A stretch of DNA of 64,000 nucleotides from Nevskiaceae bacterium (GTDB taxonomy: Bacteria; Pseudomonadota; Gammaproteobacteria; Nevskiales; Nevskiaceae), in assembly GCA_008012115.1 (NCBI GenBank), contig SSEB01000010.1:111407-175406 (forward strand), written 5' to 3'. Below, one piece after another: positions 1,811 through 55,105 of this stretch. Each line of letters opens with the position of its first letter. The stretch's first letter is position 1. The notes under the pieces are model-generated. The model was not told the origin of the DNA. It was given only the letters and a program-made list of their open reading frames with translations, and ran no database searches. A program made the translations under genes and the position numbers.

Positions 1811-1924
1811 GCCACCCGCTGACCGTTCCAACGCCGGGTCGAACGTTATGAATGATATTACGATTTATATTTCGTATTATTTTTAATAACATTTTCCCCA
1901 GGGCGTCGGCACATAGCGGGTGGC
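1811..1924. repeat. 114-bp AT-core palindromic element, copy 1
   Basis: Perfect 10-bp terminal inverted repeat: GCCACCCGCT at 1811-1820 and AGCGGGTGGC at 1915-1924. Between them lie 24 bp, a 46-bp AT-rich core (1845-1890, about 8 G/C in 46) starting GTTAT and ending ATAAC, and another 24 bp. The right arm contains TTTTCCCCAGGG. It starts 16 bp after the stop of the membrane-protein gene and lies upstream of the GGDEF/EAL gene. The family is described in the findings. Confidence 0.9.
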
Positions 1925-2048
1925 ATCGCCAGCCTCGTGTCGACGCATGGGTCGCGGGCAGTCCTCGCGCCGAGGCTCACATTCGCTTGGGCTCGTATGC
2001 AATCATTCGCTAGTCCCGTCTTCTAACCTGCGAGTAAGCACCGGAACG

Positions 2049-5000
2049 ATGCCCGTGGAGCAGCGCGTCAACGCCCATGCCAGCGATGCCCTGGCCGCAC
2101 TGCGCCCCCACGAAGGATTGCAGTTCAAGCTCGCCGCCCTGCTCGTCGTGCTGGTGCTGCTGCTCGGCGGCGCGGCGCTGGTGGTCGGCAAGTTGCTGGT
2201 GCGCGACGGTCTGGTGACGCAAACCTTCCGCTACGAAAGCGAGAGCGGTCGCCGCATCGCCCAGCAGTTCGATGACCTCGCCCTGCGCGCGGAAACGCTC
2301 GGCAACACCCTGGCGAAGCTGGCGGCGTCCAGCCCCGGCGGCCCCGCCGCGCTGCGCAGCAGCGTTGCGCCCCTCACCGCCCTGCTGCCCGACAACGGCG
2401 TGATCGTCGGCGTCGGCCTGTGGCCGGAGACCGGCGGCGGCGAACGCAGCAGCCTCTACTGGCTGCGCGATGCCAGCGGCACGCTGCAGCCGCGCAGCGA
2501 CTACAACGATCCGCGCACCGTGCCCTACGACCACGAGAAGTGGTACACGCCAGCCCGCTACAGCCAGCGCGACCGCTGCTACTGGACACCGGCCTACCGC
2601 GAGCCGCTGCTGCGCCGCGACGTCGTCACCTGCACCCTGCCGCTGCACGGTGTTCAGGGCTTCGCCGGCGCCGTCACCGTCAGCCTCGGCGTGCAGGAAC
2701 TCGAAGCCCTGTTCGCCCGCGCCACCGACGGCGACATCGGCTACAGCCTGCTGCTGGATCACGGCAGCCGCCTGCTCGCCGTCTCGCCGCGCGCCGTGCA
2801 CATCGGCGACGGCAAGACGCGACCGCGCAACCTCGCCGAACTCGGCCAGATGCAGCCGGCGCTCAACCCGCTGGCGCTGGCGGTGCACCAGCTCGACGGC
2901 GATCGCGCAACGCAGGCGGCGCGCACGCCGCAGTTCGGGCCCGCGCAGGCCGCCGCCCTGCAGGCCGGCAGCCGCGAGATGTCGCGGCAGGAAGCCGAGG
3001 CCGCGCTGGCGGCGCTGTGGGCGGCGCAGAATCCACCGGCCGCGACCGCGCCGCAGCGCCTCGATATCGACAGCGACCCGGTGCTGGGCGCGGACGCTTT
3101 CGCCACGCTGTTCCCGCTGCCCGGCGCCGACTGGCATCTGGTGCGCGTCACGCCGATGAAGCAGGGCTTCGCCGGTGCCGACCACATCTTCATGCAGACC
3201 CTGCTGGTCAACGCCGGCGCCATCGCCCTGACCCTGCTGGCGCTGTACTTCGGCCTGCGTTATCTCGTGGTGGGACCGCTGCGGCGCATGACCGCCGCGC
3301 TGGCCAACTCCGGCAGCGTCGAGGACTCCCTGCACGTCGCGCTGGACGAACGCCCGCGCAACGAGCTGGGCCTGCTCGCCTACTGGCACAACGAGCGCAT
3401 CCGCCAGATGCGCGAACTGATGGAGCGCGCCATCACCACCAACGCCCAGCTGGTGATGGAGTCGGAAGAGCGCCGCAATGCGCAGGAGGCGCTGGCGCGC
3501 ATGCAGGAGCGCGCGGCGCTGGCGCTGCAGTCGGTGGCCGACGGCGTGATCATCGCCGACGTCAACGGCCGCGTCGACGACATGAATCCGGTTGCCGAGC
3601 AGCTCACCGGCGTGCCGCTGCGCGGCGGCCGCGGCAAGGCCTTCAACGAAGTGTTCAGCGCGCGCACCGGCAACAGCGCAGTGATGCCCAACCTCGCCGA
3701 GCTGTCGGTGCAACGCGGCGCGCGTCTCGATTACCCCAACGGCCTGATCCTGCAGAGCCGCGACGGCGAGCAGCACGAGGTGCACCTGACGGTGACCCCG
3801 ATCCGCACCCGGCAGAACCGCCTGGTCGGCAGCGTGGTCGTGTTCCGCAAGAAATCCGCGCCGGTGGAGATGGCGCCGGCGCCGGTGGCCGAACCCGACC
3901 TGACCACCGGCCTGCCGCGCCGCGCCGACTGCGACCGCCGCGTCAGCGCGCTGATCGACGCGGCACGCCTGGACCGCAGCAGCCACGCGCTGCTGGTAGC
4001 CGACCTCGACCAACTCAAGCGCATCAACGACACCGCCGGCCTGCAGGCCGGTGACGAGGCCATCGTCCATGCCGGCGTGGCGTTGGCGGCGGCAGTCGGC
4101 GCCGCCGGCGAGGTGTTCCGTCTCGGCGGCGACCAGTTTGCCGTGGTGCTGCGCAACCTCGATGCCGAGCGCGCCGGCGGCTTCGCCGAGACGCTGCGCA
4201 AGGCGCTGGCGGCGTCACCGCTGGAATGGGAGTCGCGCCGCTATCCGATGACGGTCAGCATCGGCTTCGCGCCGTTCGGCGGCGACGCCAGCAGCGCCGC
4301 CGACGTGATGCAGCGCGCCGAACTCGCCTGCCGTGCCGCCAAGCGCAACGGCCGCAACCGCGTCCAGGCCTGGCAGGACGACCTCAACCCGCAGCACCAG
4401 CAGGTCGACGATGCCGTCTGGGTGCGCCGCCTGCGCGCCGGTCTCGACGGCAACCTGCTGCACCTGACCACGCAGTTCATCCAGTCCGGCAACGCGCACG
4501 CCGGCGAGGGCAACGCCTTCGAGGTGCTGCTGGCGCTGGAGGACGAGGAAGGCTTCTGGTCCACCTCCACCGCCTTCATGCCGGCGGCGCAGCGCCACAA
4601 CCTGACGACGGAGCTGGACCGCTGGGTGGTGAGCCGCACGCTCACCCATCTCGCGCGCAACCCGGCGATGCTGCCGAACCTGGCCTTCGTCAACATCAAC
4701 CTGTCGGCGCAATCGCTGGCCGAGCCCAGCATGATCGAATACATCGTGCGCGCCTTCGAGAATCTGCCGGCGGTGCCGGCCAACCGTATCTGCTTCGAGT
4801 TCGCCGAGGAGGCGCTGACTGGCCATCCGCAGCAGGCGCAGCTGTTCTGCGAGTCGCTGCACGGCATCGGCTGCCGCCTGTCGGTGGATCACTTCAGTGG
4901 CCGTCGCATCTCGGATGTCGGCCTGCTGCGGCGCCTGCCGCTGGATTTCGTCAAGGTGGACTCGGCGCAGTTCCGCAACATCGCCAACGATCCGGTCGAG

Positions 5001-5180
5001 CAGATGATGGCGGAGTCGCTGATGCGCCTAGCGCACACGCTGCGCAAGCGCGTGATTACGGCGCAGCTCGAGGACGGCGCGCGTCTCGACACCTGGCGGC
5101 GCCTGGGCGCCGACTATTTCCAGGGCCACATTGTGTCGAAGCCGACGCCGGTGATCTTCACGCCGCCGCGCGCGGCGTAA
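2049..5180 (+). CDS. Membrane sensor with Cache-like, PAS, degenerate GGDEF and degenerate EAL domains
   Basis: A 1043-residue cyclic-di-GMP-type signalling protein. The start is put at ATG 2049 because the in-frame GTG at 1920 lies inside the repeat element. Order seen: membrane helix at about residues 26-48, a large periplasmic region of Cache type to about 375, a second helix at about 378-407, a HAMP-like linker, PAS at about 484-600, GGDEF at about 617-774 and EAL at about 784-1040. The GGDEF signature reads GGDQF (residues 693-697). The EAL signature reads EVLLAL (from residue 825) and the usual DDFG reads DHFSG (from 947), so both active sites lack canonical residues. It is more likely a c-di-GMP receptor or signal relay than an active cyclase or phosphodiesterase; that is inference. 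Confidence 0.85.
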   Translation: MPVEQRVNAHASDALAALRPHEGLQFKLAALLVVLVLLLGGAALVVGKLLVRDGLVTQTFRYESESGRRIAQQFDDLALRAETLGNTLAKLAASSPGGPAALRSSVAPLTALLPDNGVIVGVGLWPETGGGERSSLYWLRDASGTLQPRSDYNDPRTVPYDHEKWYTPARYSQRDRCYWTPAYREPLLRRDVVTCTLPLHGVQGFAGAVTVSLGVQELEALFARATDGDIGYSLLLDHGSRLLAVSPRAVHIGDGKTRPRNLAELGQMQPALNPLALAVHQLDGDRATQAARTPQFGPAQAAALQAGSREMSRQEAEAALAALWAAQNPPAATAPQRLDIDSDPVLGADAFATLFPLPGADWHLVRVTPMKQGFAGADHIFMQTLLVNAGAIALTLLALYFGLRYLVVGPLRRMTAALANSGSVEDSLHVALDERPRNELGLLAYWHNERIRQMRELMERAITTNAQLVMESEERRNAQEALARMQERAALALQSVADGVIIADVNGRVDDMNPVAEQLTGVPLRGGRGKAFNEVFSARTGNSAVMPNLAELSVQRGARLDYPNGLILQSRDGEQHEVHLTVTPIRTRQNRLVGSVVVFRKKSAPVEMAPAPVAEPDLTTGLPRRADCDRRVSALIDAARLDRSSHALLVADLDQLKRINDTAGLQAGDEAIVHAGVALAAAVGAAGEVFRLGGDQFAVVLRNLDAERAGGFAETLRKALAASPLEWESRRYPMTVSIGFAPFGGDASSAADVMQRAELACRAAKRNGRNRVQAWQDDLNPQHQQVDDAVWVRRLRAGLDGNLLHLTTQFIQSGNAHAGEGNAFEVLLALEDEEGFWSTSTAFMPAAQRHNLTTELDRWVVSRTLTHLARNPAMLPNLAFVNINLSAQSLAEPSMIEYIVRAFENLPAVPANRICFEFAEEALTGHPQQAQLFCESLHGIGCRLSVDHFSGRRISDVGLLRRLPLDFVKVDSAQFRNIANDPVEQMMAESLMRLAHTLRKRVITAQLEDGARLDTWRRLGADYFQGHIVSKPTPVIFTPPRAA

Positions 5181-5192
5181 GGCCGCCGCCGG

Positions 5193-6893
5193 CTACGCCA
5201 GCCGCAGGTCCTGGATCAACAGATCCAGCTTGTCCTCGCCATTCCAGCGGTTGACGCCCAGGCGATAGGCGAGCTGCACGCGGCCACGCGTGACCAAGCG
5301 CTCGTGCCCGCCGAAATCCATCGCCTCGTAGCGCTGCCCGTCGCGGCGCAGGCGGTACTTGGCATGGGTCTGGGTGCTGCCGACCAGGCGCGCGCTCTCG
5401 ACCTCGAACACGCCTTCGAACAACGGTTCGGCGAAGCCCTGGCCCCAGGGGCCGGCGCCCGCCAGCAGCTGCGCGGTGTCGAGGCTCAGCTCGGCGGCAT
5501 CGAGTTCGCCATCGGTCTCGATCACCTGTTCCAGTTGCGTGGCGTCCAGCCACTCGGCGCAGACCGCGTCGAAGGCGGCGCTGAAGCGCTCGTAGTGCGC
5601 CTCCGCCAGGGTCAGGCCGGCGGCCATGGCATGGCCGCCGAAGCGTTCGATCATGCCCGGGTGGCGCGCGTCGACCGCAGCGAGGGCATCGCGGATGTGC
5701 AGGCCCGGAATCGAGCGTCCGGAGCCCTTCAGCAGGCCGCCCTCGCTGGCGCGCGCAAAGGCGATGGCCGGACGGTGCAGCTTCTCCTTGATGCGCGAGG
5801 CGACGAGGCCGACCACGCCCTCGTGCCAGCTCGCATCGAACAGGCAGACACCGGTGCCGGCGCCGTCCTCGGCCACGATCTGCAGGGCCGCCTCGCGCAT
5901 TTCGGACTCGATCTCGCGGCGTTCGCGGTTGAGCCGGTCCAGCGTGTGCGCCAGGGTGTCGGCGGCGGCACCGTCGTTGCCGAGCAGGCACTCGATGCCG
6001 ATGCGCATGTCGTCGAGACGGCCGGCGGCATTGATGCGCGGACCGAGCACGAAGCCCAGGTCGATGGCGCCGAGATCCTCGGCGCGGCGGCCGGCCGCGC
6101 GCAGCAGCGCCAGCAGCCCGGGGCGCGCGCGGCCGCTGCGGATGCGCGCCACGCCCTGCTGCACGAGGATGCGGTTGTTGTGGTCCAGCTTCACCACGTC
6201 GGCCACCGTGCCGAGCGCGACCAGATCGAGATACTCGGCGAGCTGCGGCTCCAGCCGCGCCGCGAACCAGCCGGTTTCGCGCAGCCGCGCGCGAAGCGCC
6301 AGCAGTAAGTAGAACATCACGCCGACGCCGGCGAGATGCTTGCTGGCGAAGCCGCAGCCCGGCTGGTTGGGATTGACGATGGCATCGGCCGCCGGCAATT
6401 CGGGACCGGGCAGATGATGGTCGGTGATCAGCACCGTCATGCCCAGCGCTTTCGCGCGTGCCACGCCGGCATTGCTGGCAATGCCGTTGTCCACCGTGAT
6501 CAGCAGGCCGGTGCCGCCCTGCGCGGCCAGCTCCGCCAGCGCCGACGACAGGCCATAGCCCATGCGGAAGCGGTCCGGCACCACATAGTCCACGCGCGCC
6601 GCGCCCATCGCGCGCAGGGCCAGCACCGCCAGCGCGGTGCTGGTGGCGCCGTCGGCGTCGTAGTCGCCGGCGATGACGATGCGCTGCCCTTCGCGCAGGG
6701 CGCGCTCCAGCAGCAGGGCGGCGTCGGCGATGCCCTTGAGCCCGGACGGCGGCAGCAGTTGCTTGAGATCGAGCGAGAGCTCCTCGGCGCGCACGCCGCG
6801 CGCGCCGTAAATCCGGCGCAGCACCGGCGGCAGGCTGGCGGGCAAGGCATGGGCCGACACGGCCTCGCGGCGACGGATCCGGGGCGCGTTCAT
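5193..6893 (-). CDS. recJ: Single-stranded-DNA-specific exonuclease RecJ
   Basis: 5'-3' ssDNA exonuclease for recombination and mismatch/base-excision repair. The product is 566 residues, close to the E. coli enzyme (577). It has the DHH-family motifs DYDADG in the N-terminal third, TVDNGIAS and ITDHHLPG for metal binding, and the DHHA1 motif RFGGHAMAAGLTL in the C-terminal half. ATG 6893 is chosen because a GGGG ribosome-binding stretch precedes it. The longer in-frame start at 6920 would sit inside element copy 2. The gene is convergent with the GGDEF/EAL gene, separated by 12 bases. Confidence 0.96.
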   Translation of the reverse strand: MNAPRIRRREAVSAHALPASLPPVLRRIYGARGVRAEELSLDLKQLLPPSGLKGIADAALLLERALREGQRIVIAGDYDADGATSTALAVLALRAMGAARVDYVVPDRFRMGYGLSSALAELAAQGGTGLLITVDNGIASNAGVARAKALGMTVLITDHHLPGPELPAADAIVNPNQPGCGFASKHLAGVGVMFYLLLALRARLRETGWFAARLEPQLAEYLDLVALGTVADVVKLDHNNRILVQQGVARIRSGRARPGLLALLRAAGRRAEDLGAIDLGFVLGPRINAAGRLDDMRIGIECLLGNDGAAADTLAHTLDRLNRERREIESEMREAALQIVAEDGAGTGVCLFDASWHEGVVGLVASRIKEKLHRPAIAFARASEGGLLKGSGRSIPGLHIRDALAAVDARHPGMIERFGGHAMAAGLTLAEAHYERFSAAFDAVCAEWLDATQLEQVIETDGELDAAELSLDTAQLLAGAGPWGQGFAEPLFEGVFEVESARLVGSTQTHAKYRLRRDGQRYEAMDFGGHERLVTRGRVQLAYRLGVNRWNGEDKLDLLIQDLRLA

Positions 6894-6915
6894 GCCCCGC
6901 ACCGGCTGCCGGCAT

Positions 6916-7029
6916 GCCACCCGCTGTCAACGCCTGGCCTTTTCATGATGTTATTAAATATCAATAGAATAATTAATTGATTAATATTATATAACAAATT
7001 CCCTGGGGAAAAGCGGCAGAGCGAGTGGC
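6916..7029. repeat. 114-bp AT-core palindromic element, copy 2
   Basis: Termini GCCACCCGCT (6916-6925) and AGCGAGTGGC (7020-7029, one mismatch to the consensus). The core is 6950-6995 (46 bp, 5 G/C), bounded by GTTAT and ATAAC. Both arms are exactly 24 bp. The right arm has TTCCCTGGGGAAAA, a near-palindrome. It lies between the TSUP stop (23 bp to its right) and the recJ start (22 bp to its left). Confidence 0.9.
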
Positions 7030-7052
7030 GCCGCAAGTGTGCCGCAAAACGC

Positions 7053-7820
7053 TCAAGCCCAGGTTTCGATGCCCTGCAGCAGCAGCCAGGCGCCCATCAG
7101 CAGCGTCACGGTCTCGAAGGCCCGCTTGATGAAGCGGTTGCCCTTGAGCAGGGCCAGCGAGCTGCCGAGATAGCCGCCGAGCACACCGCCGACCGCCAGC
7201 GCCGGCACCCAGTCCCAGCGCACCGGCGTCGCCAGCGCCACGGTGACGCCAGCGATGCTGTTCCAGAACAGGCCGACCATCAGCATGGTGCCGGCGACCG
7301 CGCCGGTGTAGTCGAAGCCGAACCAGCGCAAAAACACCAGCGTGGCGAACAGGCCGGGACCGGAGGGAAACAGGCCGCAGAGCAGGCCCACGCCGGCCAT
7401 CAGGACCATGCCGGTCCAGAGACCGCGGCCCTGGCGATGGCGAGGCTGCGCATCGACCCCGAAGCCCGGCCGCAGGATCGAGTACAGCGCCATGCCGATG
7501 TTGCTCAGGCCGAACAGCACCTTGCCCGGTCCGGCGGGAATCTGCAGCGCCCAGAGATTGCCGACGATCAGTCCCGGCAGACCGGCGGCCAGCATCAGGC
7601 CGATGAAGGTCCAGTCGAAACGATAGCTGCGCAGCAGCTTGGCGGTGGAGCCCAGGCCCAGCGCCACCACCGCCACCTTGTGCGTGGCGATGGCGAGCGT
7701 GAACGGCAGGCCGAGCGCAATCAGCGCCGGAAACTGCACGAGGCCCGCGCCGCCGCCGGCCAGCGCCGAGAAAAAGCTGGCGGTAAAGCCGGTGAGCGCC
7801 AGCAGCAGAAGTTGCAGCAC
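7053..7820 (-). CDS. Sulfite exporter TauE/SafE (TSUP) family permease
   Basis: A 255-residue integral membrane protein with about seven to eight hydrophobic segments. The N-terminal signature ALTGFTASFFSALAGGGAG followed by PALIALGLPF and ATHKVAV is typical of TSUP permeases, which move sulfite, sulfoacetate or other small organosulfur anions. The C-terminal half repeats the pattern (GFDYTGAVAGTMLMVGLFWN). It starts 15 bases after the thrC stop, so it probably ends the threonine operon. The substrate cannot be read from the sequence. Confidence 0.85.
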   Translation of the reverse strand: MLQLLLLALTGFTASFFSALAGGGAGLVQFPALIALGLPFTLAIATHKVAVVALGLGSTAKLLRSYRFDWTFIGLMLAAGLPGLIVGNLWALQIPAGPGKVLFGLSNIGMALYSILRPGFGVDAQPRHRQGRGLWTGMVLMAGVGLLCGLFPSGPGLFATLVFLRWFGFDYTGAVAGTMLMVGLFWNSIAGVTVALATPVRWDWVPALAVGGVLGGYLGSSLALLKGNRFIKRAFETVTLLMGAWLLLQGIETWA

Positions 7821-7835
7821 GCGCCGCGTGCCGCG

Positions 7836-8957
7836 CTAGGCGATGTGCGAGCGGATGGCCTTCTCGACGGCGGCGCGTTCGGCCGGCACCTGGATCAGAC
7901 CCTGCAGACCGCCCTTCATCACGATGTCGGGGTCCTTCAGGCCGTTGCCGGTAAGCGTGCACACCACGGTGCTGCCCGGCGCGATCCTGCCGGCCTTGAT
8001 GTCGGCCAGCGCACCGCACAGCGAGGCGGCGGAGGCCGGCTCGCAGAACACGCCCTCGCTCACCGCCAGCAGCTTCTGCGTGACGAGGATGGCCTCGTCG
8101 CTGCACTCGTCGAACCAGCCGCCGGACTCCTGCTGCACCTTCCAGGCCTGGCTCCAGGACTGCGGATCGCCGATGCGGATGGCGGTAGCGACGGTTTCGG
8201 GATTCTTCACCACGCCGCCGCGCATGAACGGCGCGCTGCCGGCCGCCTGATAGCCGACCATCTTCGGACGCTGCGTCGGCTGTCCCGACTGCAGGTGTGC
8301 GCAGCGGCCGTTGCAGTAGGCGCAGGCCTGCGTCTGCACGCCGGCGGATTCGGAATAGCCGATCCAGTGCGCGGTGATGTTGCCGGCGTTGCCCACCGGC
8401 AGGCAGTGATAGTCCGGCGCGCGGCCCAGTGCCTCGACGATCTCGAACGCCGCCGTCTTCTGACCCTGCAGGCGATACGGGTTGATCGAGTTGACGATGC
8501 TCACCGGCGAGGTCTGCGCGACCTCCTTCACCAGCCGCATGCCGTCGTCGAAGTTGCCCTGGATCTGCACGACCACCGCGCCGTGCACCACGGCCTGCGC
8601 CAGCTTGCCGAGCGCGATCTTGCCATCGGGAATCAGCACGAAGGCGGTGATGCCGGCGCGCGCGGCATAAGCCGCGGCGGCGGCCGAAGTGTTGCCGGTG
8701 GAGGCGCAGATGATCGCCCTGCTGCCTTCGTGGACGGCCTGCGTGACGGCGACCGTCATGCCGCGATCCTTGAACGAGCCGGTCGGATTGAGGCCCTCGA
8801 ACTTGACGTAGATCTCGCCCTCGAAGCCGACCTTGCGTGTCAGGTTGTCGAGCTTGATCAGCGGCGTGCGGCCCTCGCCGAGGCTGATGGCGCGCGCCTC
8901 CTTGGGCAGCGGCAGGCGATCGCGGTAGGCGTCAATCAGTCCGGTGTAGCGGGTCAT
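7836..8957 (-). CDS. thrC: Threonine synthase
   Basis: PLP enzyme converting O-phosphohomoserine to threonine, the last step of the pathway. The product is 373 residues from ATG 8957; the frame remains open further upstream, but that part overlaps the GNAT gene and has no homology-like content. The motifs LGEGRTPLIKLDNL and GLNPTGSFKDRGM (PLP lysine) are clear, and ICASTGNTSAAAAAYAARAG and LPVGNAGNITAHWIGY are family hallmarks. A cysteine cluster ACAYCNGRCAH follows the last motif and is unusual to my eye. Hom, a GNAT and thrC are read in that order, consistent with a threonine operon. Confidence 0.95.
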   Translation of the reverse strand: MTRYTGLIDAYRDRLPLPKEARAISLGEGRTPLIKLDNLTRKVGFEGEIYVKFEGLNPTGSFKDRGMTVAVTQAVHEGSRAIICASTGNTSAAAAAYAARAGITAFVLIPDGKIALGKLAQAVVHGAVVVQIQGNFDDGMRLVKEVAQTSPVSIVNSINPYRLQGQKTAAFEIVEALGRAPDYHCLPVGNAGNITAHWIGYSESAGVQTQACAYCNGRCAHLQSGQPTQRPKMVGYQAAGSAPFMRGGVVKNPETVATAIRIGDPQSWSQAWKVQQESGGWFDECSDEAILVTQKLLAVSEGVFCEPASAASLCGALADIKAGRIAPGSTVVCTLTGNGLKDPDIVMKGGLQGLIQVPAERAAVEKAIRSHIA

Positions 8958-8991
8958 GGCGTGTTCCTGAAAACTCGGGTTGCGATATCGA

Positions 8992-9609: not shown

Positions 9610-9638
9610 GTCGATGCCGTCCGAATCCGCGCGCGGAC

Positions 9639-14596: not shown

Positions 14597-14709
14597 ACCA
14601 CCCGCTCCGCGGCCCGAGCCAGGATGGGAGTTATGAATTGTCTGCTTGTGAAATTATATTGGAATATTTACTAACATCAATTGCGAGAGCGATCGCTGTC
14701 GTTTCCGCG
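14597..14709. repeat. AT-core palindromic element, copy 3 (one terminus lost)
   Basis: Left terminus ACCACCCGCT (14597-14606), a 23-bp arm, and a 46-bp AT-rich core 14630-14675 beginning GTTAT and ending CTAAC. At the expected right terminus (about 14700-14709) there is no AGCGGGTGGC. This is the only copy between two gene starts (surE and the smr gene), and the only one with a missing end. Confidence 0.7.
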
Positions 14710-28682: not shown

Positions 28683-28797
28683 GTCACCCGCTCGCGGGGC
28701 TTGCACCAGGGAGTTTGTTATTTTTTTATTATATTATTTTAAAAAAGATAAATACTATTTAACAACATCCACCGCTCAGGCGGCGTTAGCGGGTGCC
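28683..28797. repeat. 115-bp AT-core palindromic element, copy 4 (overlaps the accA end)
   Basis: Termini GTCACCCGCT (28683-28692) and AGCGGGTGCC (28788-28797). Left arm 24 bp, core 28717-28763 (47 bp, nearly pure A/T, GTTAT...TTAAC), right arm 24 bp. The right 22 bases extend over the accA stop codon into its coding sequence. The left arm carries ACCAGGGAG. Confidence 0.88.
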
Positions 28798-29771
28798 AGA
28801 TTCTTGGGCATTTTCACCGTCTCGTATGCGCCGTAGGACATCAGACGCTCGTAGCGCGTGGCCAGCAGCTGGGTCATGGGCACATGGCGCAGGCGCTCGA
28901 GATTGGTGACCAGCTTGTGGCGCAGCGTGGCGAACATCTGCGCCGGGTCGCGGTGCGCGCCGCCCAGCGGCTCCGGCACGATCTCGTCGATCAGCTTGAA
29001 GTCGTAGATGTCGCGGGCGGTGATCTTCATCGCCTCGGCCGCCTCGGAGGCGCGGCCGGCGTCCTTGAACAGGATGGAGGCGCAGCCCTCAGGCGAGATC
29101 ACGGAGTAGATGCTGTGCTGGAGCATCATCACGTGGTCGGCGATGCCGATCGCCAGCGCGCCGCCGGAGCCACCCTCGCCGGTCACCGTGGCCAGCACCG
29201 GCGTGCGCAGCGTCGCCAGCTCGATCAGGTTGCGGGCGATGGCCTCGGACTGGTTGCGCTCCTCGGCGTCGATGCCCGGATACGCGCCCGGCGTGTCGAT
29301 GAAGGTGATCACCGGCAGGTTGAACTTCTCCGCCAGCTTCATCACGCGCAGCGCCTTGCGGTAGCCCTCGGGCTTGGGCATGCCGAAGTTGCGGTAGACG
29401 CGCTCCTTGGCGTCACGGCCCTTCTGCTGGCCGATGACGACGACGGCGCGGCCTTCCAGCCGCGCCAGGCCGCAGACGATGGAGGGATCGTCCTTGTAGT
29501 GGCGATCGCCGTGCAGCTCCTCCCACTCGGTGAACAGGGCCTTGATGTAGTCCAGCGCATACGGCCGGTGCGGGTGACGCGCCAGCTGCGCCACCTGCCA
29601 GGGGGTGAGCTTGGCGAAGATCTGCTCGGTCAGCTCCTTGCTCTTGACCTCCAGCCGCGCGATCTCCTCGGTCAGGCTGACGCCGCTGCCGGCGGTGGCG
29701 TTGCGCAGTTCGTCGATCTTCTGCTGAAGCTCGGCGATGGGCTGTTCGAAATCCAGGTAGTTCAGATTCAT
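28776..29771 (-). CDS. accA: Acetyl-CoA carboxylase carboxyltransferase subunit alpha
   Basis: With AccD it transfers CO2 from biotin to acetyl-CoA, giving malonyl-CoA for fatty-acid synthesis. The 331-residue protein starts [21 protein letters not shown] and shows [38 protein letters not shown] and [20 protein letters not shown]. The last residues ([10 protein letters not shown]) are encoded by the arm of repeat element copy 4. It follows dnaE, the conserved arrangement. Confidence 0.97.
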
Positions 29772-34125: not shown

Positions 34126-34239
34126 GCCACCCGCTCTGGCCGGTTTTCCCAGGGAAACTGTTTTATTTTAATTATTGAATTTATTTTCATTTAATATTTG
34201 ATAACACTATTCCGCCGCCTCAGCACCACAGCGGGTGGC
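34126..34239. repeat. 114-bp AT-core palindromic element, copy 5
   Basis: Perfect termini GCCACCCGCT (34126-34135) and AGCGGGTGGC (34230-34239). Arms of 24 bp on both sides and a 46-bp core 34160-34205 that begins GTTTT and ends ATAAC. The left arm contains TTTTCCCAGGGAAAC. It ends two bases before the lpxB stop codon and lies just upstream of rnhB. Confidence 0.92.
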
Positions 34240-38350: not shown

Positions 38351-38464
38351 GCCACCCGCTACTGCGGTCATCGTGATTGGAATTGTTAAAAAATATCTAC
38401 TACTTTCAAATTAACTCAACAAAAAATAACCATTACAAGGGCATTCCGCCCGATAGCGGGTCGT
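38351..38464. repeat. 114-bp AT-core palindromic element, copy 6
   Basis: Termini GCCACCCGCT (38351-38360) and AGCGGGTCGT (38455-38464, imperfect; the last base belongs to the bamA stop codon). Arms 24 bp; core 38385-38430 of 46 bp beginning GTTAA and ending ATAAC. The right arm has GGGCATTCCGCCC, a small palindrome. It separates bamA from skp. Confidence 0.88.
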
Positions 38465-44268: not shown

Positions 44269-44382
44269 GCGACCCGCTCGATCAGAATTCAATGCCGCGC
44301 TCGTTATTAATTGTAATATGAAAATAATTTCTATGTATTTTATATAACAAGCCGTCGCGGCGCCAACTGGAGAGCGGGTGGG
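44269..44382. repeat. 114-bp AT-core palindromic element, copy 7
   Basis: Termini GCGACCCGCT (44269-44278, one mismatch) and AGCGGGTGGG (44373-44382, one mismatch). Arms 24 bp; core 44303-44348 of 46 bp from GTTAT to ATAAC. The right end stops one base before the uppS stop codon, and cdsA starts 54 bases to the left of the left end. Confidence 0.9.
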
Positions 44383-46424: not shown

Positions 46425-46450
46425 GAAAGAGGCCCCGTTTCCGGGGCCTC
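46425..46450 (-). terminator. Hairpin after tsf
   Basis: GAGGCCCCG (46429-46437) pairs perfectly with CGGGGCCTC (46442-46450) around a 4-base loop; on the - strand it is followed by TTTCTAGG. The short T tract suggests partial termination between tsf and pyrH. Confidence 0.7.
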
Positions 46451-46480
46451 AGATTACCGATAGTTTAACGCAAACGCGGC

Positions 46481-47404: not shown

Positions 47405-47467
47405 AGATATTCGGAATTTGAGGTCCCGGCCCGCAGGAGGCCGGAACGTGAAAATGAAACATCAAGC

Positions 47468-47499
47468 CGCCGGGAGACGGCGAGTGCCATCTCCCGGCG
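47468..47499 (-). other. Intercistronic hairpin between rpsB and tsf
   Basis: CGCCGGGAGA (47468-47477) and TCTCCCGGCG (47490-47499) form a perfect 10-bp stem with a 12-base loop, just after the rpsB stop (- strand). No T tract follows, so it is better read as an mRNA stabiliser or processing element than as a terminator. Confidence 0.55.
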
Positions 47500-47509
47500 T
47501 TGACGCGTG

Positions 47510-48340
47510 TTACGCCTCGGCGCGGTCGCCGCGGCGGCCGCGGGACGGACGGTCGCCACGACCGTCACGATCGCCGCCCGGCTTGCGCGGACGCGGCTTG
47601 CGCGGTTCGGCCTTGACCTCGGGTTCCGGCACGTATTCGTCCGGCTTGAGGTTGGGGTTGGAGCCGCGGCCTTCGACGATGGCGTCGGCCAGGCATTGGG
47701 CGTAGACCTTGATCGCGCGGGTGGCGTCGTCGTTGCCGGGGATCACGCAGTCGATGCCGGCGGGATCGTTGTTGGTATCGACCACGGCGATGACCGGGAT
47801 GCCGAGCTTCTTGGCTTCAGCGATCGCGTTCTTCTCATAGCCGGTGTCGATCACGAACAGGCAGTCCGGCAGGCTCGGCATGTTCTTGATGCCGCCCAGC
47901 GACTTGCGCAGCTTCTCCAGCTCGCGGGTGTGGTTGAGCTGCTCTTTCTTGGTGAGGCGGTTGATGGTGCCGTCCTCGACCGCCTTCTCCATCTCGTGCA
48001 GGCGCTTGATCGAGGCCTTGATGGTCTTGAAGTTGGTCAGCGTGCCACCCAGCCAGCGCTGGGAGACGTACGGCATGCTGGCACGCTGGGCTTCGGCCTC
48101 GACGGCCTCACGCGCGGCTCGCTTGGTGCCGACGAACAGGATGCGGCCGCCGTTGGCGGCGAGCTTGCCGGCGAAGGAGCAGGCGTCCTTCAGCATCGGC
48201 AGGGTCTGCTCGAGGTTGATAATGTGAATGCGGTTACGTTCGCCGAAAATGAATTCGTCCATTTTCGGGTTCCAGTAGCGGGTGCGGTGTCCGAAGTGGA
48301 CGCCCGCTTCCAGCAACTGGCGCATCGTGATGTTCGCCAT
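47510..48340 (-). CDS. rpsB: 30S ribosomal protein S2
   Basis: 276 residues (E. coli 241) starting [20 protein letters not shown] at ATG 48340, chosen because AAGGAG lies 8 bases upstream. S2 signatures include [23 protein letters not shown] [14 protein letters not shown] and [21 protein letters not shown]. The C-terminal tail of about 40 residues is Arg/Lys/Pro/Gly/Asp-rich ([20 protein letters not shown]) and resembles the low-complexity tails of some GC-rich gammaproteobacteria. A structured leader and promoter lie upstream. Confidence 0.96.
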
Positions 48341-48412
48341 TGCAAAACTCCTTGGGTTGATAGCAAACCGCGCCGAAGTGACAGGCACCCAAGACCGGCG
48401 CGGATGGATTCA

Positions 48413-48450
48413 TCAAAGGATTGCCCGGCAAAATGCCGGATTGCCTTTGA
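48413..48450 (-). ncRNA. Structured leader hairpin upstream of rpsB
   Basis: TCAAAGG...CCTTTGA (48413-48419 with 48444-48450) encloses CCGGCA...TGCCGG with a TTT loop and matching GCAAT flanks, giving a near-symmetrical hairpin in the 5' untranslated region of the rpsB-tsf mRNA. Gammaproteobacterial rpsB leaders are known to bind S2 for autoregulation; this hairpin sits in the right place but I cannot confirm the conserved motif. Confidence 0.5.
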
Positions 48451-48459
48451 AGGGCGCGC

Positions 48460-48488
48460 TTTATACCATAGCGCCCCTTTGAAAACAA
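48460..48488 (-). promoter_or_regulatory. Sigma-70-type promoter of rpsB-tsf
   Basis: On the - strand TTGTTT (48483-48488), a 17-bp spacer, and TATAAA (48460-48465). The predicted transcript starts near 48453 and runs through the leader hairpin to the rpsB start at 48340. It is divergent from map, whose start is 24 bases beyond the -35 box. Confidence 0.7.
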
Positions 48489-48511
48489 TATGTTCCGCCA
48501 CCGCGCCGGCC

Positions 48512-49297
48512 ATGGCCATTACGATCAAAACCGCTGAAGAGCAACAGAAAATGCGCGCCGCCGGCGCTGCCGCCGGCCAGGTCCTGAGCATGATCGCGGA
48601 GCATGTGCGCCCCGGCGTCAGCACCGAGGAACTGGATCGGCTCTGCCACCGTTACATCGTCGAGACGCTGGGCTGCGTCCCGGCGCCGCTGAATTACGGT
48701 GGCGGCGGCGGCCGCATCCCCTTTCCCAAATCGATCTGCACCTCGGTCAACCATGTGGTCTGCCACGGCATTCCAGGCCCCAAGGTGCTCAAGCGCGGTG
48801 ATTCCATCAACATCGACGTCACCGTCATCAAGGACGGCTGGCACGGCGACACCAGCCAGATGTTTCACGTCGGCGAGGCCACGGTGCTGTCGCGCCGCCT
48901 GGTCGACACCACCCGCGAAGCCATGATCGAGGGCATCCGCCTGGTGCGCCCGGGCGTACATCTGGGCGATATTGGCAACGCCATTCAGCGCTACGCGGAG
49001 AGCCGTGGTTTCTCCGTGGTGCGCGAATACTGCGGACACGGCATCGGTCGGATCTTCCACGAAGATCCCCAGGTCCTGCACTACGGCAAGCCTGGCACAG
49101 GGATTGAATTGAAAACCGGCATGACTTTCACCATCGAACCGATGATCAACGCCGGCAAGGCCGACGTGAAACTCCTGCCGGACGGCTGGACCGTGGTCAC
49201 CAAGGACCATTCCCTTTCGGCGCAGTGGGAGCACACCGTGCTGGTGACCGACACCGGCTATGAAGTGCTGACGCTGCGCGCCGGGGAAACCCTCTGA
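48512..49297 (+). CDS. map: Methionine aminopeptidase, type I
   Basis: Removes N-terminal Met from nascent chains. 261 residues from ATG 48512 (AITIKTAEEQQKMRAAG). The metal ligands are in NIDVTVIKDGWHGDTSQMF, CGHGIGRIFHEDPQVLHYG, FTIEPM and SAQWEHTVLVTD. No Shine-Dalgarno sequence precedes the ATG, so the message may be leaderless or nearly so. It stops one base into the glnD start (TGATG). The much longer upstream open frame runs antisense to rpsB and is not real. Confidence 0.96.
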   Translation: MAITIKTAEEQQKMRAAGAAAGQVLSMIAEHVRPGVSTEELDRLCHRYIVETLGCVPAPLNYGGGGGRIPFPKSICTSVNHVVCHGIPGPKVLKRGDSINIDVTVIKDGWHGDTSQMFHVGEATVLSRRLVDTTREAMIEGIRLVRPGVHLGDIGNAIQRYAESRGFSVVREYCGHGIGRIFHEDPQVLHYGKPGTGIELKTGMTFTIEPMINAGKADVKLLPDGWTVVTKDHSLSAQWEHTVLVTDTGYEVLTLRAGETL

Positions 49298-51978
49298 TGG
49301 GCGCTGAAATCGAGCTGGCGGAAGAGGAAGCCGCCTCCATTTTCAGCGCCAACAAGATCCGCGCCCGCCTGGCGCAGGATGGTCGCTCCATCGCCGCGTT
49401 CCGCGACACGCTGAAGTGGGGTCGCGAGCGCCTCGCCGGCCTGTTCCACGACGGCATGCCGGCGGACTCGCTGGTGCATGCCCGCGCGCACCTGGTCGAC
49501 GAGGTGCTGCGCGAGGCCTGGCTGAAGTTCCTGCCCGAGAACCCGCAGGGCCTGGCGATGATCGCGGTCGGCGGCTACGGCCGTGGCGAGCTGCTGCCCC
49601 ACTCGGACATCGACATCCTGCTGCTGCACGAGGCCGACGCACTGGAAACGCATCGCCGCGGACTGGAGCAACTCACCGCGTTTGGCTGGGACATCGGACT
49701 CGAGGTCGGCCAGAGCGTGAGAACGGTGCAGGACTGCCAGGATCAGGCCCGCGACGACATCACCGTCATGACCAACATGATGGAAGCACGCCCGCTGATC
49801 GGCGATGCGCGCCTGTTCACGGCCATGCAGGCGGCCATCGCACCCGACCAGATCTGGCCCGCCGACGCCTTCTACCGCGCCAAGCGCGAGGAGCAGGCGG
49901 CGCGCTACAAGAAGTACGACGACACCGGCTACAAGCTGGAGCCCAACGTCAAGGAAAGCCCCGGCGGCCTGCGCGACATCCACACCATCGGCTGGGTGGC
50001 CAAGCGCCATTTCGGCGTGCGCAACCTCATCGAGCTGCGCGACCGCGGTTTCCTCACCAAGCAGGAATGCGACGAATTGTTCGCGGGGCAGGATTTCCTG
50101 TGGCGCGTTCGCTTCGCGCTGCACATGATCACCGGGCGCCGCGAGGACCGCCTGCTGTTCGATCACCAGATCAAGGTCGCGGCGCTGTTCGGCTATGTCG
50201 ACTCCGACCACAACCGCGCGGTCGAGCAGTTCATGCAGCTCTACTACCGCACCATCAAGTCGCTGTCCTGCCTCAACGACGTCCTGCTGCAGCTGTTCGA
50301 TGAAGCCATCCTCCATCCCAAGGACGACGACGAGGTCAAGCCGATCAACTCGCGCTTCGGCGTTCGCAGCAATTACATCGAAGTGCGCGGCGAGGACGTC
50401 TTCCGCCAGCACCCGCACGCCCTGCTCGAAATCTTCCTGCTGATGCAGCAGAACCCGAAGATCGAGGGCATCCGCGCCAGCACCCTGCGCCTGATCCTGC
50501 GCGACAACCGCTACATCACCGATGCGGTGCGCGAGGACGTACGGGCGCGCAGCATCTTCATCGAGATGTTCCGCGAGGGCCGCGGCCTGACGCGCAACCT
50601 GCGCCGCATGAACCGCTACGGCGTACTGGGTCGTTACCTGCCCGCCTTCGGCAAGATCGTCGGCCTGATGCAGTACGACCTGTTCCACACCCTGACCGTG
50701 GACGAGCACACGCTGTACGTGCTGCGCAACGCGCGCCGCTATGCCATGAAGCGCTTCCGCGACGAGTTCCCGTTCTGCAGCGAGGTGATGGACCGCCTGG
50801 CCAAGCCGGAACTGCTGTATCTCGCCGCCTTCTTCCACGACATGGCCAAGGGGCGCGGCGGCGATCACTCGAAGCTGGGCGCCGACGAGGCGCGGCATTT
50901 CTGCCTCGATCACGGCCTCTCGCACAGCGACGCGGCGCTGGTGGCGTGGCTGGTGCAGAACCACCTGCTGATGTCGCTCACCGCGCAGAAGCAGGACCTG
51001 GCCGACCCGAACATCGTCAGCGAATTCGCCCACAAGGTGGCGGACCGCGCCCGCCTCGACTACCTGTTCCTGCTGACCTGCGCCGACATCCGCGGCACCA
51101 ACCCGGCCCTGTGGAATTCCTGGCGCGAAAGCCTGCTGACCAATCTCTACAACTCGGCCGCGCGCGCGCTCGAACGGGGTCTCAGCAACCCGTTGAACGA
51201 ATCCGAGATGGTGGCCGAGCGGCGCAGCCGGGCGCTGGCGCTGCTGGCGGAAAAGGGCATCAATCCGCAGCAGGCCAAGGACGTCTGGAGCCGCTTCGAG
51301 AACGATTATTTCCTGCGCCATACGCCGGAGGAGATCGCCTGGCACCTGCCCGAAATCCTGGCCTGCACCGAGGACCAGCTGCCGCTGGTGCTGGTGAAGT
51401 CGCTCGCCGACCTCGGCACCACGGTATTCATCTACACCCGCGACCGCGATCACCTCTTTGGCCTGACCACCGCGGTGCTGGCACGGCTGGGTCTCAACAT
51501 TCTCGACGCGCGACTCAACACCACGGCTGACAGCTTCACGCTGGACTCCTACGTGGTGATGGAAGGCGACGGCTCGCCGATCAGCAGCGATCATCGCTTC
51601 ATGGAGATCGCCGCGGCGCTGCGCAAAGTGCTCAGCGATCCCGACATCTCGATGGTCGACGTCAACCGCCGCGGTTCGCAGAAGCTCAAGCACTTCAACA
51701 CGCCGACCACGGTCTACTTCAGCCAGGACGAGGCGCGTCGCCGCACCATCCTCGAGTTGGTGACCGCCGACCAGCCCGGCCTGCTGTCGATGATCGGCCG
51801 CATCTTCCAGAAGCGCGGCATCCTGCTGGACGCCGCCAAGATCGGCACCATCGGCGAACGCGCCGAAGACGTCTTTTTCATCACCGACCGGATGCATCGG
51901 CCGATCGTCGATGAGAGAATTCTCGAGGACCTCCGCGAGGTCATCACCCGCACCCTCAACCGCAGCGAAACCAACTGA
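49297..51978 (+). CDS. glnD: Bifunctional uridylyltransferase/uridylyl-removing enzyme
   Basis: Nitrogen sensor: adds UMP to PII proteins when glutamine is low and removes it when high. 893 residues: nucleotidyltransferase domain with [19 protein letters not shown], a PII-interaction region, HD domain ([19 protein letters not shown]), and two C-terminal ACT domains ([40 protein letters not shown]). It follows map with a one-base overlap and precedes dapD by five bases, a common gammaproteobacterial order. Confidence 0.97.
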
Positions 51979-51983
51979 CCGCC

Positions 51984-52805
51984 ATGAACCTCGACGAACT
52001 GAAGAAAGCCATCGAAGCCGCCTGGGAGGCGCGCGACAACCTCAACAAGTGCGATGGCGTGCTGCGCAGCGCCGTGGAAAAAGTCATCGGTCTGCTCGAC
52101 AAGGGTGAGGCGCGCGTCGCCGAGCCGACGGCCTCCGGCTGGGTGGTCAACGAGTGGCTGAAGAAGGCGGTGCTGCTGTATTTCCGCCTGCACCCCAACG
52201 TGCCGGTGGAGATGGGCCGCCTGCAGGGTTACGACAAGGTGCCGCTGAAGTTCGCGGACTGGAGCGAAACTGATTTCGCCGCGCAGGGCGCGCGCGTGGT
52301 GCCGCCGGCGGCGGTGCGCAAGGGCGCCTTTATCGCGCCGGGCGCGATCCTGATGCCGTCCTACGTCAACATCGGCGGCTATGTCGGCGCAGGCACCATG
52401 GTGGATACCTGGGCCACGGTCGGCTCCTGTGCGCAGATCGGCGCCAATGTCCATCTCTCGGGCGGCGTCGGCATTGGCGGCGTGCTCGAACCGCTGCAGG
52501 CCAGCCCCACCATCATCGAGGACGATTGCTTCATTGGCGCGCGCTCCGAGATCGTCGAGGGTGTGATCGTCGAGAAGGGCGCGGTGATTTCGATGGGCGT
52601 GTTCATCGGCCAGTCGACGCCGATCTACGATCGCGAAACCGGCGAAGTGAGTTACGGTCGCGTACCCGCTGGCGCCGTCGTGGTGGCGGGTTCGCTGCCC
52701 AAGGACGGCGGCCGCTACAACCTCAACTGCGCGGTGATCGTGAAGAAGGTCGATGCGAAGACCCGTGCCAAGGTCGGCATCAACGCCCTGCTGCGCGACC
52801 TTTGA
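51984..52805 (+). CDS. dapD: Tetrahydrodipicolinate N-succinyltransferase
   Basis: Lysine/diaminopimelate pathway enzyme using succinyl-CoA. 273 residues starting [20 protein letters not shown], with a left-handed beta-helix ([60 protein letters not shown]) and the typical end [16 protein letters not shown]. Supports meso-DAP peptidoglycan. Five bases after glnD. Confidence 0.98.
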
Positions 52806-52844
52806 CACGATGCCGATGATCGTATCGTTGCTGCGGCCGCTGCC

Positions 52845-53975
52845 GTGAACGCGCCCTCGCCTGTGCTGGACCTGACGCGCGACCTGATCGCGCGCCGCTC
52901 GCTGACGCCGGACGATGCCGGCTGCTGTGCACTCATCGGCGAGCGTCTGGCGCGCCTCGGTTTTCGGTTGGAATGGCTCAACGCCAACGGCGTCACCAAC
53001 CTCTGGGCGACGCTGGGCAGCGGCGCCCCGCTGATGATTTTCGCCGGCCACACCGATGTGGTGCCGACCGGCCCGCTGGAGCAGTGGCACAGCGATCCCT
53101 TCGCACCGGCCATCCGAGACGGTGTGCTGTACGGCCGTGGCGCGGCCGACATGAAGTCCGGGCTTGCGGCGATGGTCTGCGCGGCAGAGCGATTCGTGGC
53201 GCGCGGCCCCATCAAGGGCACCCTGGCCTTCCTCATCACTAGCGACGAAGAGGGTCCCTGCCGCTTCGGCACCAAGCACGTGGTCGAGCAGTTGCAGGCG
53301 CGCGGCGTGAAGCCGGACTACGCCATCGTCGGCGAAGCGTCCAGCAACCTGCAGCTCGGTGACCGCATCATGATCGGCCGCCGCGGCTCGCTGGGCTGCG
53401 ATCTCAAGGTGCTCGGCAAGCAGGGCCACGTCGCCTACCCGCACAAGGCCGACAACCCGATCCACCGCCTGATGCCGGCGCTGGCGGAACTGGTGGCAAC
53501 GCGCTGGGACGAGGGCAATGCGCACTTCCCGCCGACGTCGTTCCAGATCTCCAATCTCCGCGCCGGCACCGGCGCCAACAACGTCATCCCTGGCGAAGCC
53601 GAGGTCGTCTTCAACTTCCGCTACTGCACCGAGCTGACCGCCGACGCGATCAAGGCGCGCGTCACCGCCGTGCTCGATCGCCACTGTCCGCGCTACGAGG
53701 CACAGTGGTGGCACACCGGCGAACCCTTCCTGACGCGACCGGGCCGGCTGATCGATGCGGCGCAAACCGCCATCGGCAGCGTCACCGGCCTGAAGCCGGA
53801 ACTGTTCACCGGCGGCGGCACCTCCGACGCCCGCTTCATCGCGCCCTGGGGCGCGGAGGTGGTCGAGATCGGACCGATCAACGACAGCATCCACAAGCTC
53901 AACGAGCACGTGAAGGTGGAGGATCTCGACCGCCTCTCGGCGATCTACGAAGGTGTGCTGGAGCGTCTGCTGTGA
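52845..53975 (+). CDS. dapE: Succinyl-diaminopimelate desuccinylase
   Basis: M20 zinc metallopeptidase; next lysine-pathway step after DapD/DapC. 376 residues from GTG 52845 (NAPSPVLDLTRDLIARRSLT). Metal motifs AGHTDVVPTGP, YGRGAADMKSGLAAMV and ITSDEEGP are present, and GGTSDARFIAPWGAEVVEIG near the end. It begins 39 bases after dapD and its stop overlaps the next gene start. Confidence 0.96.
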   Translation: MNAPSPVLDLTRDLIARRSLTPDDAGCCALIGERLARLGFRLEWLNANGVTNLWATLGSGAPLMIFAGHTDVVPTGPLEQWHSDPFAPAIRDGVLYGRGAADMKSGLAAMVCAAERFVARGPIKGTLAFLITSDEEGPCRFGTKHVVEQLQARGVKPDYAIVGEASSNLQLGDRIMIGRRGSLGCDLKVLGKQGHVAYPHKADNPIHRLMPALAELVATRWDEGNAHFPPTSFQISNLRAGTGANNVIPGEAEVVFNFRYCTELTADAIKARVTAVLDRHCPRYEAQWWHTGEPFLTRPGRLIDAAQTAIGSVTGLKPELFTGGGTSDARFIAPWGAEVVEIGPINDSIHKLNEHVKVEDLDRLSAIYEGVLERLL

Positions 53976-54976
53976 AAAAAGACGGCGCGCCGGAGCCCGG
54001 CGACGGCTTCGCGCCGTCCTGGCTGATCCGCCACGCGCAGATCCAGTCGATCCTCGCCACCAAGAGTCCACGCCGCCGGCTCTGGCTCAAGCGCGGCAGC
54101 CGCATGGAGGCTGTCCAGCAGGCCCACGTGCTCGACTGCGGCGACGGCGTGCGGCTCACCGGCCTGCACTCGCGCCAGCCCGAAGGCACCGCGCCGCGCG
54201 GGCTGGCCGTATTGATCCACGGCTGGGAAGGCTCGCACGAATCCGTCTACCTGTACTCGATGGCCTGCGTGCTCTACCAGGCCGGCTACAACATCTTCCG
54301 TCTCAACCTGCGCGATCACGGCGGCACCCACGCGCTCAACCGAGAGATGTTCCACTCTGCGCGCTTCGATGAAGTGCTGGGTGCCATGCGGGCCATCCAG
54401 GCGCTGGACACGACGCAGCCGCTCTACGTCATCGGCTTCTCACTTGGCGGCAACTTCGCCCTGCGCGTGGCGCTGCGCGGACCGGCGCAGGGCGTCACAC
54501 CACGGCTGACCATCGGCATCTCGCCGGCGATCAATCCCGCCGCCACCATCCGCGCCATCGATCACGGCCCAGGGCTGTTCCGCGCCTACTTCCTCGACAA
54601 GTGGCGCAAGACCCTGCGGGCGAAGAAGGCGGCGTGGCCGGACTACGACTTCAGCGTCTTCGAGCGCACCGACAGCCTGTGGGAAACCACGCGCCACTTT
54701 GCCGAGCGCTTCACCGAGTACGGCGACATGGACCGCTACTTCGCCGCCTACACGCTGACGCCGCAGATGCTGATGGCATCGCCCGCGCCGGTGGCGGTGA
54801 TCACCGCACAGGACGATTCGGTGATTCCCTTCGCGGATTTCGCGGGCCTGGAAGCGCGCGGCGCGGTGCGCGCCTACCTGGCCACGGCGCGCGGCGGCCA
54901 CTGCGGCTTCATCGAAAACCTGCGCATGAGCAGCTGGGCGGAAAAGCGCGTGCTGGAGCTGCTGGCGGCCCATTGA
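53972..54976 (+). CDS. Alpha/beta-hydrolase, YheT/EMB8 type
   Basis: A 334-residue hydrolase starting at GTG 53972, which overlaps the dapE stop (GTGA). Oxyanion region LIHGWEGSHESVYLYSM, RLNLRDHGGTHALN, nucleophile serine in YVIGFSLGGNFALR, acid region ITAQDDSVIPF, and the catalytic histidine in ARGGHCGFIE. Homologues act on esters or lipids and often follow dap or argininosuccinate genes; the substrate is unknown. Element copy 8 follows its stop by 15 bases. Confidence 0.85.
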   Translation: MKKDGAPEPGDGFAPSWLIRHAQIQSILATKSPRRRLWLKRGSRMEAVQQAHVLDCGDGVRLTGLHSRQPEGTAPRGLAVLIHGWEGSHESVYLYSMACVLYQAGYNIFRLNLRDHGGTHALNREMFHSARFDEVLGAMRAIQALDTTQPLYVIGFSLGGNFALRVALRGPAQGVTPRLTIGISPAINPAATIRAIDHGPGLFRAYFLDKWRKTLRAKKAAWPDYDFSVFERTDSLWETTRHFAERFTEYGDMDRYFAAYTLTPQMLMASPAPVAVITAQDDSVIPFADFAGLEARGAVRAYLATARGGHCGFIENLRMSSWAEKRVLELLAAH

Positions 54977-54991
54977 ACGAGGCCCTGGGAC

Positions 54992-55105
54992 GCCACCCGC
55001 TGTCGACCGTTTACCCAGGTAAAATGTTATATTTTATTTATACAATTTAAAATCAGTAAATAAAATATCACGATTTCTTCAAAGAAATCCCTGATAGCGG
55101 GTGGC
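54992..55105. repeat. 114-bp AT-core palindromic element, copy 8
   Basis: Perfect termini GCCACCCGCT (54992-55001) and AGCGGGTGGC (55096-55105). Arms 24 bp; core 55026-55071 of 46 bp, GTTAT...ATCAC. Both arms carry perfect inner palindromes: TTTACCCAGGTAAA on the left and GATTTCTTCAAAGAAATC on the right. It lies between two convergent genes, 15 bp and 13 bp from their stop codons. Confidence 0.92.

Follow-up and report, generated by a model that had tools for sequence, protein, structure and literature searches.

Why should a bacterial chromosome hold a sequence to one exact length over eleven helical turns while the letters of its arms are free? The question is raised by a 64,000-nucleotide stretch (the window, C12:111407-175406) of a Nevskiaceae bacterium genome of 3.25 Mb in 24 contigs (G000), in which eight short intergenic elements recur. 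Judged by one protein, whose nearest named relatives among the best 80 of 586 matches are Sinimarinibacterium, Hydrocarboniphaga, Solimonas and Nevskia, the genome belongs in or near Nevskiaceae. The original prediction, made from the letters of the window, placed eight elements with inverted termini and an AT-rich core edged by GTTAT and ATAAC. Direct reading confirmed all eight together with these parts: six copies measure 114 bp and one 115 bp, and the incomplete copy at 14597, of 113 bp, has lost its right end, as the prediction had implied. The answer that we favour, at a probability of roughly 0.45, is that the approximately 350 elements of this genome would be binding sites of one chromosome-organising nucleoprotein complex, which would divide the chromosome into regular domains.

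Within the window, the cores contain 9-24% G+C compared with 65.7% for the window as a whole, and exact ACCCGCT...AGCGGGT pairs occur six times versus none in 100 shuffles. Genome-wide, ACCCGCT and AGCGGGT stand 79 to 109 nucleotides apart at 349 places, against 3 for a reversed control pattern, which is far from chance frequency; a strict pattern of the full geometry yielded 275 matches and a half-element pattern 459. Detailed counts were made on 1.234 Mb (38%) of the genome's DNA. There, 130 of the 134 normal-sized copies with exact ends are exactly 114 bp long and the other four differ by a single base pair (two of 113 bp, two of 115 bp), extending well beyond the window the invariance of length first noted there; two further exact end pairs are longer, at 143 and 164 bp. 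A profile built from the 130 copies gave 143 matches above 15 bits, 137 of them above 70 (matches scoring 15 bits or less, such as the decayed copy at 14597, were excluded everywhere), and in an earlier 838-kb set, shuffled as 18 pieces, no score of a comparable profile exceeded -64. By extrapolation, the whole genome would hold about 380 recognisable copies. Moreover, when AT-rich islands (at least 37 A/T in 46 positions) were listed blind to the end motifs, a procedure that misses decayed copies with weaker cores, 139 of the 146 islands fell within elements; at least two of the remaining seven retain, by eye, a recognisable single end. Only one lone half-element, a weak one, was present in the 1.23 Mb.

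The similarity of the copies to each other bears on whether this geometry is maintained. Among 96 of 99 copies (scores of 70 or less removed), mean arm identity was 0.387, versus 0.388 in column-resampled sets, and no pair exceeded 0.71; arm pairs above 0.6 identity numbered 21 against 2.35 expected, an excess that is probably due in part to an optional arm motif described below. The ends are of another kind: in 137 of the 143 copies (scores of 60 or less removed, a selection that favours intact ends) the end 7-mers contained 10 mismatches in 1918 positions, and the GT and AC core edges were exactly placed in 133. At usual bacterial indel rates, many indels would be expected neutrally once the arms are saturated. 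Because the arms are saturated and ends, edges and spacing are nonetheless fixed, the geometry of the element appears to be under selection, as had been proposed; chance-level arms, near-invariant length and ends, and the near-confinement of AT-rich islands to elements all support that proposal.

Information content, arm motifs, arm stems and core symmetry were worked out on 132 of the 143 copies (scores of 80 or less removed). Each half starts with GCCACCCGCT at positions 1-10, of which 4-10 are near-invariant, partly through match selection, followed by a weak preference at 11-14, a free arm to about position 29, an A/T-leaning stretch at 30-34, GTTAT at 35-39, AT at 45-46 and YR at 51-52 beside A53, with the dyad at 57.5. 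Relative to genome composition, this corresponds to 0.29 bits per position in the arms, 1.85 in the ends (4-10) and 1.87 at the core edge. The cores had been said to differ completely from copy to copy, which is wrong: alignments of 90 and of 132 copies reveal a common consensus, degenerate and dyad-symmetric, that reads roughly GTTATTAATTATTTATCGAATTT and its mirror image. In the 132 copies each half of it holds about 15 bits in excess of AT-richness, and the G of GTT together with the CG close to the dyad provides about half of that amount. It is the arms, rather than the cores, whose letters are unrelated between copies.

The arms carry one recurrent motif of their own. A palindrome, TTTCCCNGGGAAA (written TTTCCC[T/A]GGGAAA, and seen for example in the arm at window 34136-34159), occurs in 45 of 264 arms with at least 9 of its 12 letters matched; its position is 19 or 20 in every case, and the matches are bimodally distributed. 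On the strength of this fixed position and bimodality, we read the motif as an optional further part of the element, possibly the site of a second protein. It occupies both arms in 2 of the 132 copies and one arm in 41, where independence expects 3.8 and 37. The core edge GTTAT, the arm motif and the end motif are centred 20.5, 32 and 52 bp from the dyad, which at 10.5 bp per turn is 1.95, 3.05 and 4.95 turns; because these spacings are near-integral, the three sub-sites would share one face of the helix.

Folding of the element as a whole was considered and rejected. The ends never compensate for each other, and left-right matching is about that of independent halves, except at core positions 47-54. 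Central perfect palindromes average 2.39 bp versus 2.47 bp in permuted halves, 13 copies have four or fewer core mismatches against 5.4 expected from permuted halves, and a central palindrome of at least 20 bp is present in two copies (0.3 expected). A hairpin in each arm was likewise rejected as a general feature, being confined to a minority of arms. In a few arms the end motif is repeated once more in inverted orientation, giving a short hairpin (C1:64487, C1:81874, C5:43982 and C10:142861), and an end-motif hairpin also lies beside an AT-rich island at C15:208744 of G001, the only other genome of the genus returned by our searches, at a junction that is element-free in G000.

Placement along the chromosome was analysed with genes predicted by a codon-bias script written for this purpose. 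None of the 143 elements lies inside a called gene. Among junctions of up to 1500 bp, an element is carried by 90 of the 744 tandem junctions, 26 of the 123 convergent ones and 24 of the 121 divergent ones, at a median distance of 24.5 bp from the stop codon and 67.5 bp from the start codon. Density is around one copy per 8-9 kb, contig means of the spacing ranging from 6.6 to 11.8 kb. As a null model, sites were picked at random among intergenic junctions longer than 110 bp on four contigs (5000 draws for C1). The coefficient of variation (CV) of the spacing was 0.37 on C1 versus a null of 0.84, with none of the 5000 draws as low, and 0.53 versus 0.77 on C10 (P 0.013); on C12 it was 0.66 versus 0.85 (P 0.066; an earlier test with a smaller gene set gave P 0.018-0.039). 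Pairs closer than 3 kb were absent from C1 (9.8 expected, P 0.0000), C12 (4.9 expected, P 0.002) and C5 (3.7 expected, P 0.015). On two of the four contigs the elements are more evenly spaced than a random intergenic choice, and on three they rarely stand close together. Specifically, it is in the CV of C1 and C10 and in the scarcity of close pairs on C1, C12 and C5 that the distribution is non-random, as looked for in chromosome-organising sites.

If the elements do organise the chromosome, a symmetric protein assembly would read their phased sub-sites and wrap or bridge the DNA, and this would explain why the arms keep their length but not their letters. An easily bent or melted centre would then be provided by the AT-rich core. 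Each bound element would serve as a barrier to supercoils or as an anchor, and the chromosome would thereby possess a built-in grid of about 350-400 domains. The fixed length over eleven turns, the phased sub-sites and the dyad together fit a rigid symmetric assembly of this kind. Dispersed symmetric sites read by one protein are familiar from matS/MatP and parS/ParB; those sites are approximately 13-16 bp long and regional, whereas the present elements are composite, 114 bp long and occur on the contigs sampled. To our knowledge, no fixed sequence element marks the domain boundaries of E. coli and Salmonella. The supercoil domains of these bacteria, 10 kb in size and 400-500 in number (PMC3420936, excerpt), resemble the elements in spacing and number. 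The exclusion of the elements from called genes also calls such domains to mind. We advance only tentatively the more specific proposal of a sequence-encoded grid, with 350-400 fixed 114-bp insulators, one per approximately 8-9 kb, at which the complex would wrap DNA and block the diffusion of supercoils.

Several findings weigh against a chromosome-organising role. G001 has lost nearly all ends, with no exact half-element in its whole genome, which argues that the system is dispensable in the genus. Spacing is uneven on C5 as a whole (CV 1.15 versus a null of 0.92, P 0.90), C10 has four pairs closer than 3 kb (6.5 expected, P 0.14) and C3 two more, including a near-identical pair taken up below, and the spacing and placement nulls depend on our simple gene caller. 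In addition, the left and right halves covary within the core (per-position z as high as 3.7 at 47-52; z 6.2 with positions 47-54 pooled), and core mismatches number 7.88 of 23 versus 8.51 in permuted halves. Such covariation and the reduced mismatches hint at pairing or conversion, for which a plain protein site would have no need.

The high CV of C5 is caused by one empty stretch of 67 kb (G000:C5:47138-114233), with a G+C content of 60.7 versus 66.1%. A scan of ten among its 26 called proteins identified, besides others, an FtsH-like protease, two P-type ATPases and two RND pumps, as well as transposition proteins of the IS21/Mu type (IstB/Mu); the stretch is apparently an acquired stress/metal island.

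The history of the elements was followed by comparing gene junctions with 800 kb of G001, whose G+C content is 54% in the parts examined versus 65% in G000, a large shift within one genus. Both orthologues of a junction were required (327 of 1030 genes had one), and inverted gene pairs and gaps above 1500/3000 bp were left out. A single nearly complete copy lies in this part of G001, at a junction that has an element in G000 too; it measures 112 bp, and its ends are GCCACCCGCA and TGCGGGTGGG. An AT-rich island is present in G001 at 11 of 39 orthologous junctions that carry an element in G000, versus 2 of the 71 junctions that have no element and measure at least 100 bp (Fisher p 1.7e-4) and 2 of 243 element-free junctions overall. 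At a stricter 39/46, G001 has 15 islands, of which six are unmappable and nine map to a compared junction, eight of these being element sites. Where G001 has an island (at 35/46), 13 of 14 junctions show projected gap lengths that differ by no more than 78 bp between the two genomes; where it has none, 20 of 25 junctions are wider in G000, by 41-247 bp (median 116.5 bp), and five are narrower. Several of the G001 remnants retain a GTT...AAC core, most of them without ends, and the core pattern occurs 14 times in G001 (13 of them AT-rich) and 0-6 times in each of the other 59 relatives. As read from these junctions, some elements are older than the split of G000 and G001, and others were gained in G000 or lost in G001.

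Beyond the genus, the geometry was not found among the genomes examined, plentiful as it is in G000. The strict full geometry had no match in a sample of 368 other class genomes, the half-element pattern had none in 57 other genomes of the family, G001 included, and viral contigs yielded no pattern match. ACCCGCT end pairs considered without the core number 0-4 per genome in 60 relatives and exceed the control in five of these. Looser CACCCGC end pairs number 0-10 per relative and clearly exceed the control in several (10 versus a control of 1 in G010, 5 versus 0 in G004 and 6 versus 2 in G021), and among the matches listed outside the genus none has an AT-rich core. In approximately 108 kb of syntenic DNA from six named relatives (L120-L125), no island was present at 34/46.

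Gain or loss at so many junctions brings in the main rival, a family of miniature inverted-repeat transposons that spread in the genus ancestor and in the G000 lineage and is now immobile. On this account target immunity would have made the spacing even, and a transposase that still recognises the ends would have kept them conserved. Short inverted ends and hundreds of intergenic copies are what such a family would leave. Moreover, since G001 is shorter by 41-247 bp at 20 of the 39 junctions, whole units of about element size would have been gained here or lost there. The same may be seen at the lpxB-rnhB-like junction (the gene names being gene-order labels; Pfam names were obtained for ten window proteins), which is tight or overlapping in three of the six named relatives (L120, L123 and L125), the gaps of the other three being estimated at approximately 80-95 bp. 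The arm pairs above 0.6 identity also speak for copying. However, with no arm pair above 0.71 among the 96 copies there are no clearly young copies in that set, and the ends and length of immobile copies should decay, which they largely do not. Neither an autonomous parent nor, apart from the one weak example, a lone half-element was seen in the 38% of the genome examined, and inspection by eye of 20 bp on either side of the eight copies in the window showed no target duplication.

The original claim that these are not recent mobile copies stands for the most part. The arms show no close pair in the set compared, but the excess of moderately similar arms, a near-identical pair on C3 and the element-sized gain or loss at 20 of the 39 compared junctions count against the claim, and its premise of unrelated cores was mistaken. 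That pair, at C3:65965-66077 and C3:67352-67465, lies 1.4 kb apart, differs by one base in length and is the only clear recent duplicate observed. RU, ERIC, Correia/NEMIS and other MITE-like (miniature inverted-repeat transposable element) families have inverted ends, an intergenic location and a body sequence common to their copies. The present elements are like them in size, inverted ends and location, and differ in their chance-level arms and held length: terminal inverted repeats are present as 10-bp ends, and likeness in the body fails for the arms, the cores sharing a consensus. RU elements of 103, 127 and 168 bp are described as MITE-like (PMC2759123, excerpt). We consider an immobile transposon family unlikely as the whole explanation. 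The elements may have originated by past dispersal, and architectural sites could themselves have arisen from a fossil family of miniature transposons that was later recruited.

REP/BIME sequences are likewise high-copy, species-specific and palindromic, with suggested roles in chromosome organisation and termination (PMC2817692, excerpt); the present elements differ in being single, 114 bp long and of fixed length with free arms. RAYT genes are described as invariably lying between two inverted REPs. The genome's one Y1_Tnp (RAYT-like) match, at G000:C20:52763-53086, has in the 10 kb around it a single ordinary element, approximately 1.2 kb away, and no flanking inverted pair, so that a RAYT link was rejected. 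The REP unit is a 20-40 bp palindrome tagged with GTAG/CGTC (PMC3733652, excerpt), unlike the 114-bp element with its separate ends and core and a consensus without such a tag. On both counts the elements do not match REP/BIME, which the original prediction did not recognise in them either. No description of this element was found among the papers listed in the literature searched, by titles and abstract openings.

A bidirectional transcription terminator, or another RNA structure at 3′ ends, is improbable. It would account for a median position 24.5 bp past the stop codon and for elements at 26 of 123 convergent junctions, and perfect stems of at least 5 bp are found in 19% of 264 arms versus 8% in column shuffles. 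Yet 59% of the arms lack even a 4-bp stem, the ends are near-invariant instead of compensating, and the GC-rich hairpin with a U-run that intrinsic terminators would show is not found in most copies. No Rfam family reached its cut-off on any window element (only two tRNAs did in the window). Moreover, 90 of the 140 element-bearing junctions are tandem, as are seven of the eight compared junctions of 58 bp or less in G001; such tandem, tight junctions place elements inside apparent operons, which argues against termination.

Slightly less probable still is a DNA-uptake signal, by which competent cells would prefer DNA carrying the element and biased uptake would maintain the sites. A GC-rich 10-mer with AT-rich DNA at a fixed distance resembles the Pasteurellaceae motif. 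In DUS/USS systems a single short motif carries uptake, and we know of no uptake motif with a 114-bp two-sided requirement. Outside elements, which themselves lie outside called genes, GCCACCCGCT is at chance level (8 observed versus 10.2 expected), hence it matters only within the composite, and a Chi-like or uptake role of the 10-mer was rejected. Uptake sequences are similarly abundant, and significant even spacing has been reported for them by Karlin et al. (PMC1939737, excerpt); the element's 10-mer is not over-represented on its own. Operators of a regulon or another set of transcription-factor sites would explain dyad symmetry and fixed half-site spacing, but are very improbable given the many copies, their non-random spacing and a position closer to stops (24.5 bp) than to starts (67.5 bp).

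The window copies and the parts of one example are collected in Table 1. The right arm of one copy overlaps the 3′ end of a called gene (window 28776-28797), where the element can thus supply the stop codon.

Table 1. Elements in the window and, for one copy, their component parts (positions are those of the window; G001 is the other genome of the genus)
Feature	Position	Strand	Remarks
Element copy	1811..1924	no strand	114 bp, both ends perfect
Element copy	6916..7029	no strand	114 bp, right end with one mismatch, profile score 125; tandem junction of about -4 bp in G001
Decayed copy	14597..14709	no strand	113 bp, left end and core edges retained, right end gone
Element copy	28683..28797	no strand	115 bp, right arm overlaps 3′ end of called gene 28776-29771
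Element copy	34126..34239	no strand	114 bp, optional TTTCCCAGGGAAA site in left arm; tandem junction of about 26 bp in G001
Element copy	38351..38464	no strand	114 bp; AT-rich stretch (39/46) at the same junction in G001
Element copy	44269..44382	no strand	114 bp; junction about 101 bp shorter in G001
Element copy	54992..55105	no strand	114 bp, convergent junction
End motif GCCACCCGCT (example)	34126..34135	+	centre 52 bp from dyad
Inverted end motif (example)	34230..34239	-	read in window, consensus
AT-rich dyad-symmetric core, 46 bp (example)	34160..34205	no strand	read in window, consensus

If the elements are indeed domain anchors, the long-standing question of what sets the size and place of supercoil domains in bacteria would become testable by deleting or moving single 114-bp sites, and the sister species G001, with nearly all of its elements lost, would be a natural control. 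Should the grid be real, boundaries that are thought to be stochastic in E. coli would here be written into the chromosome, and would have been largely abandoned in the sister species. Even as fossils of a mobile family, the elements would present apparent selection on spacing, and not on the letters of the spacer, over approximately 11 helical turns at hundreds of loci.

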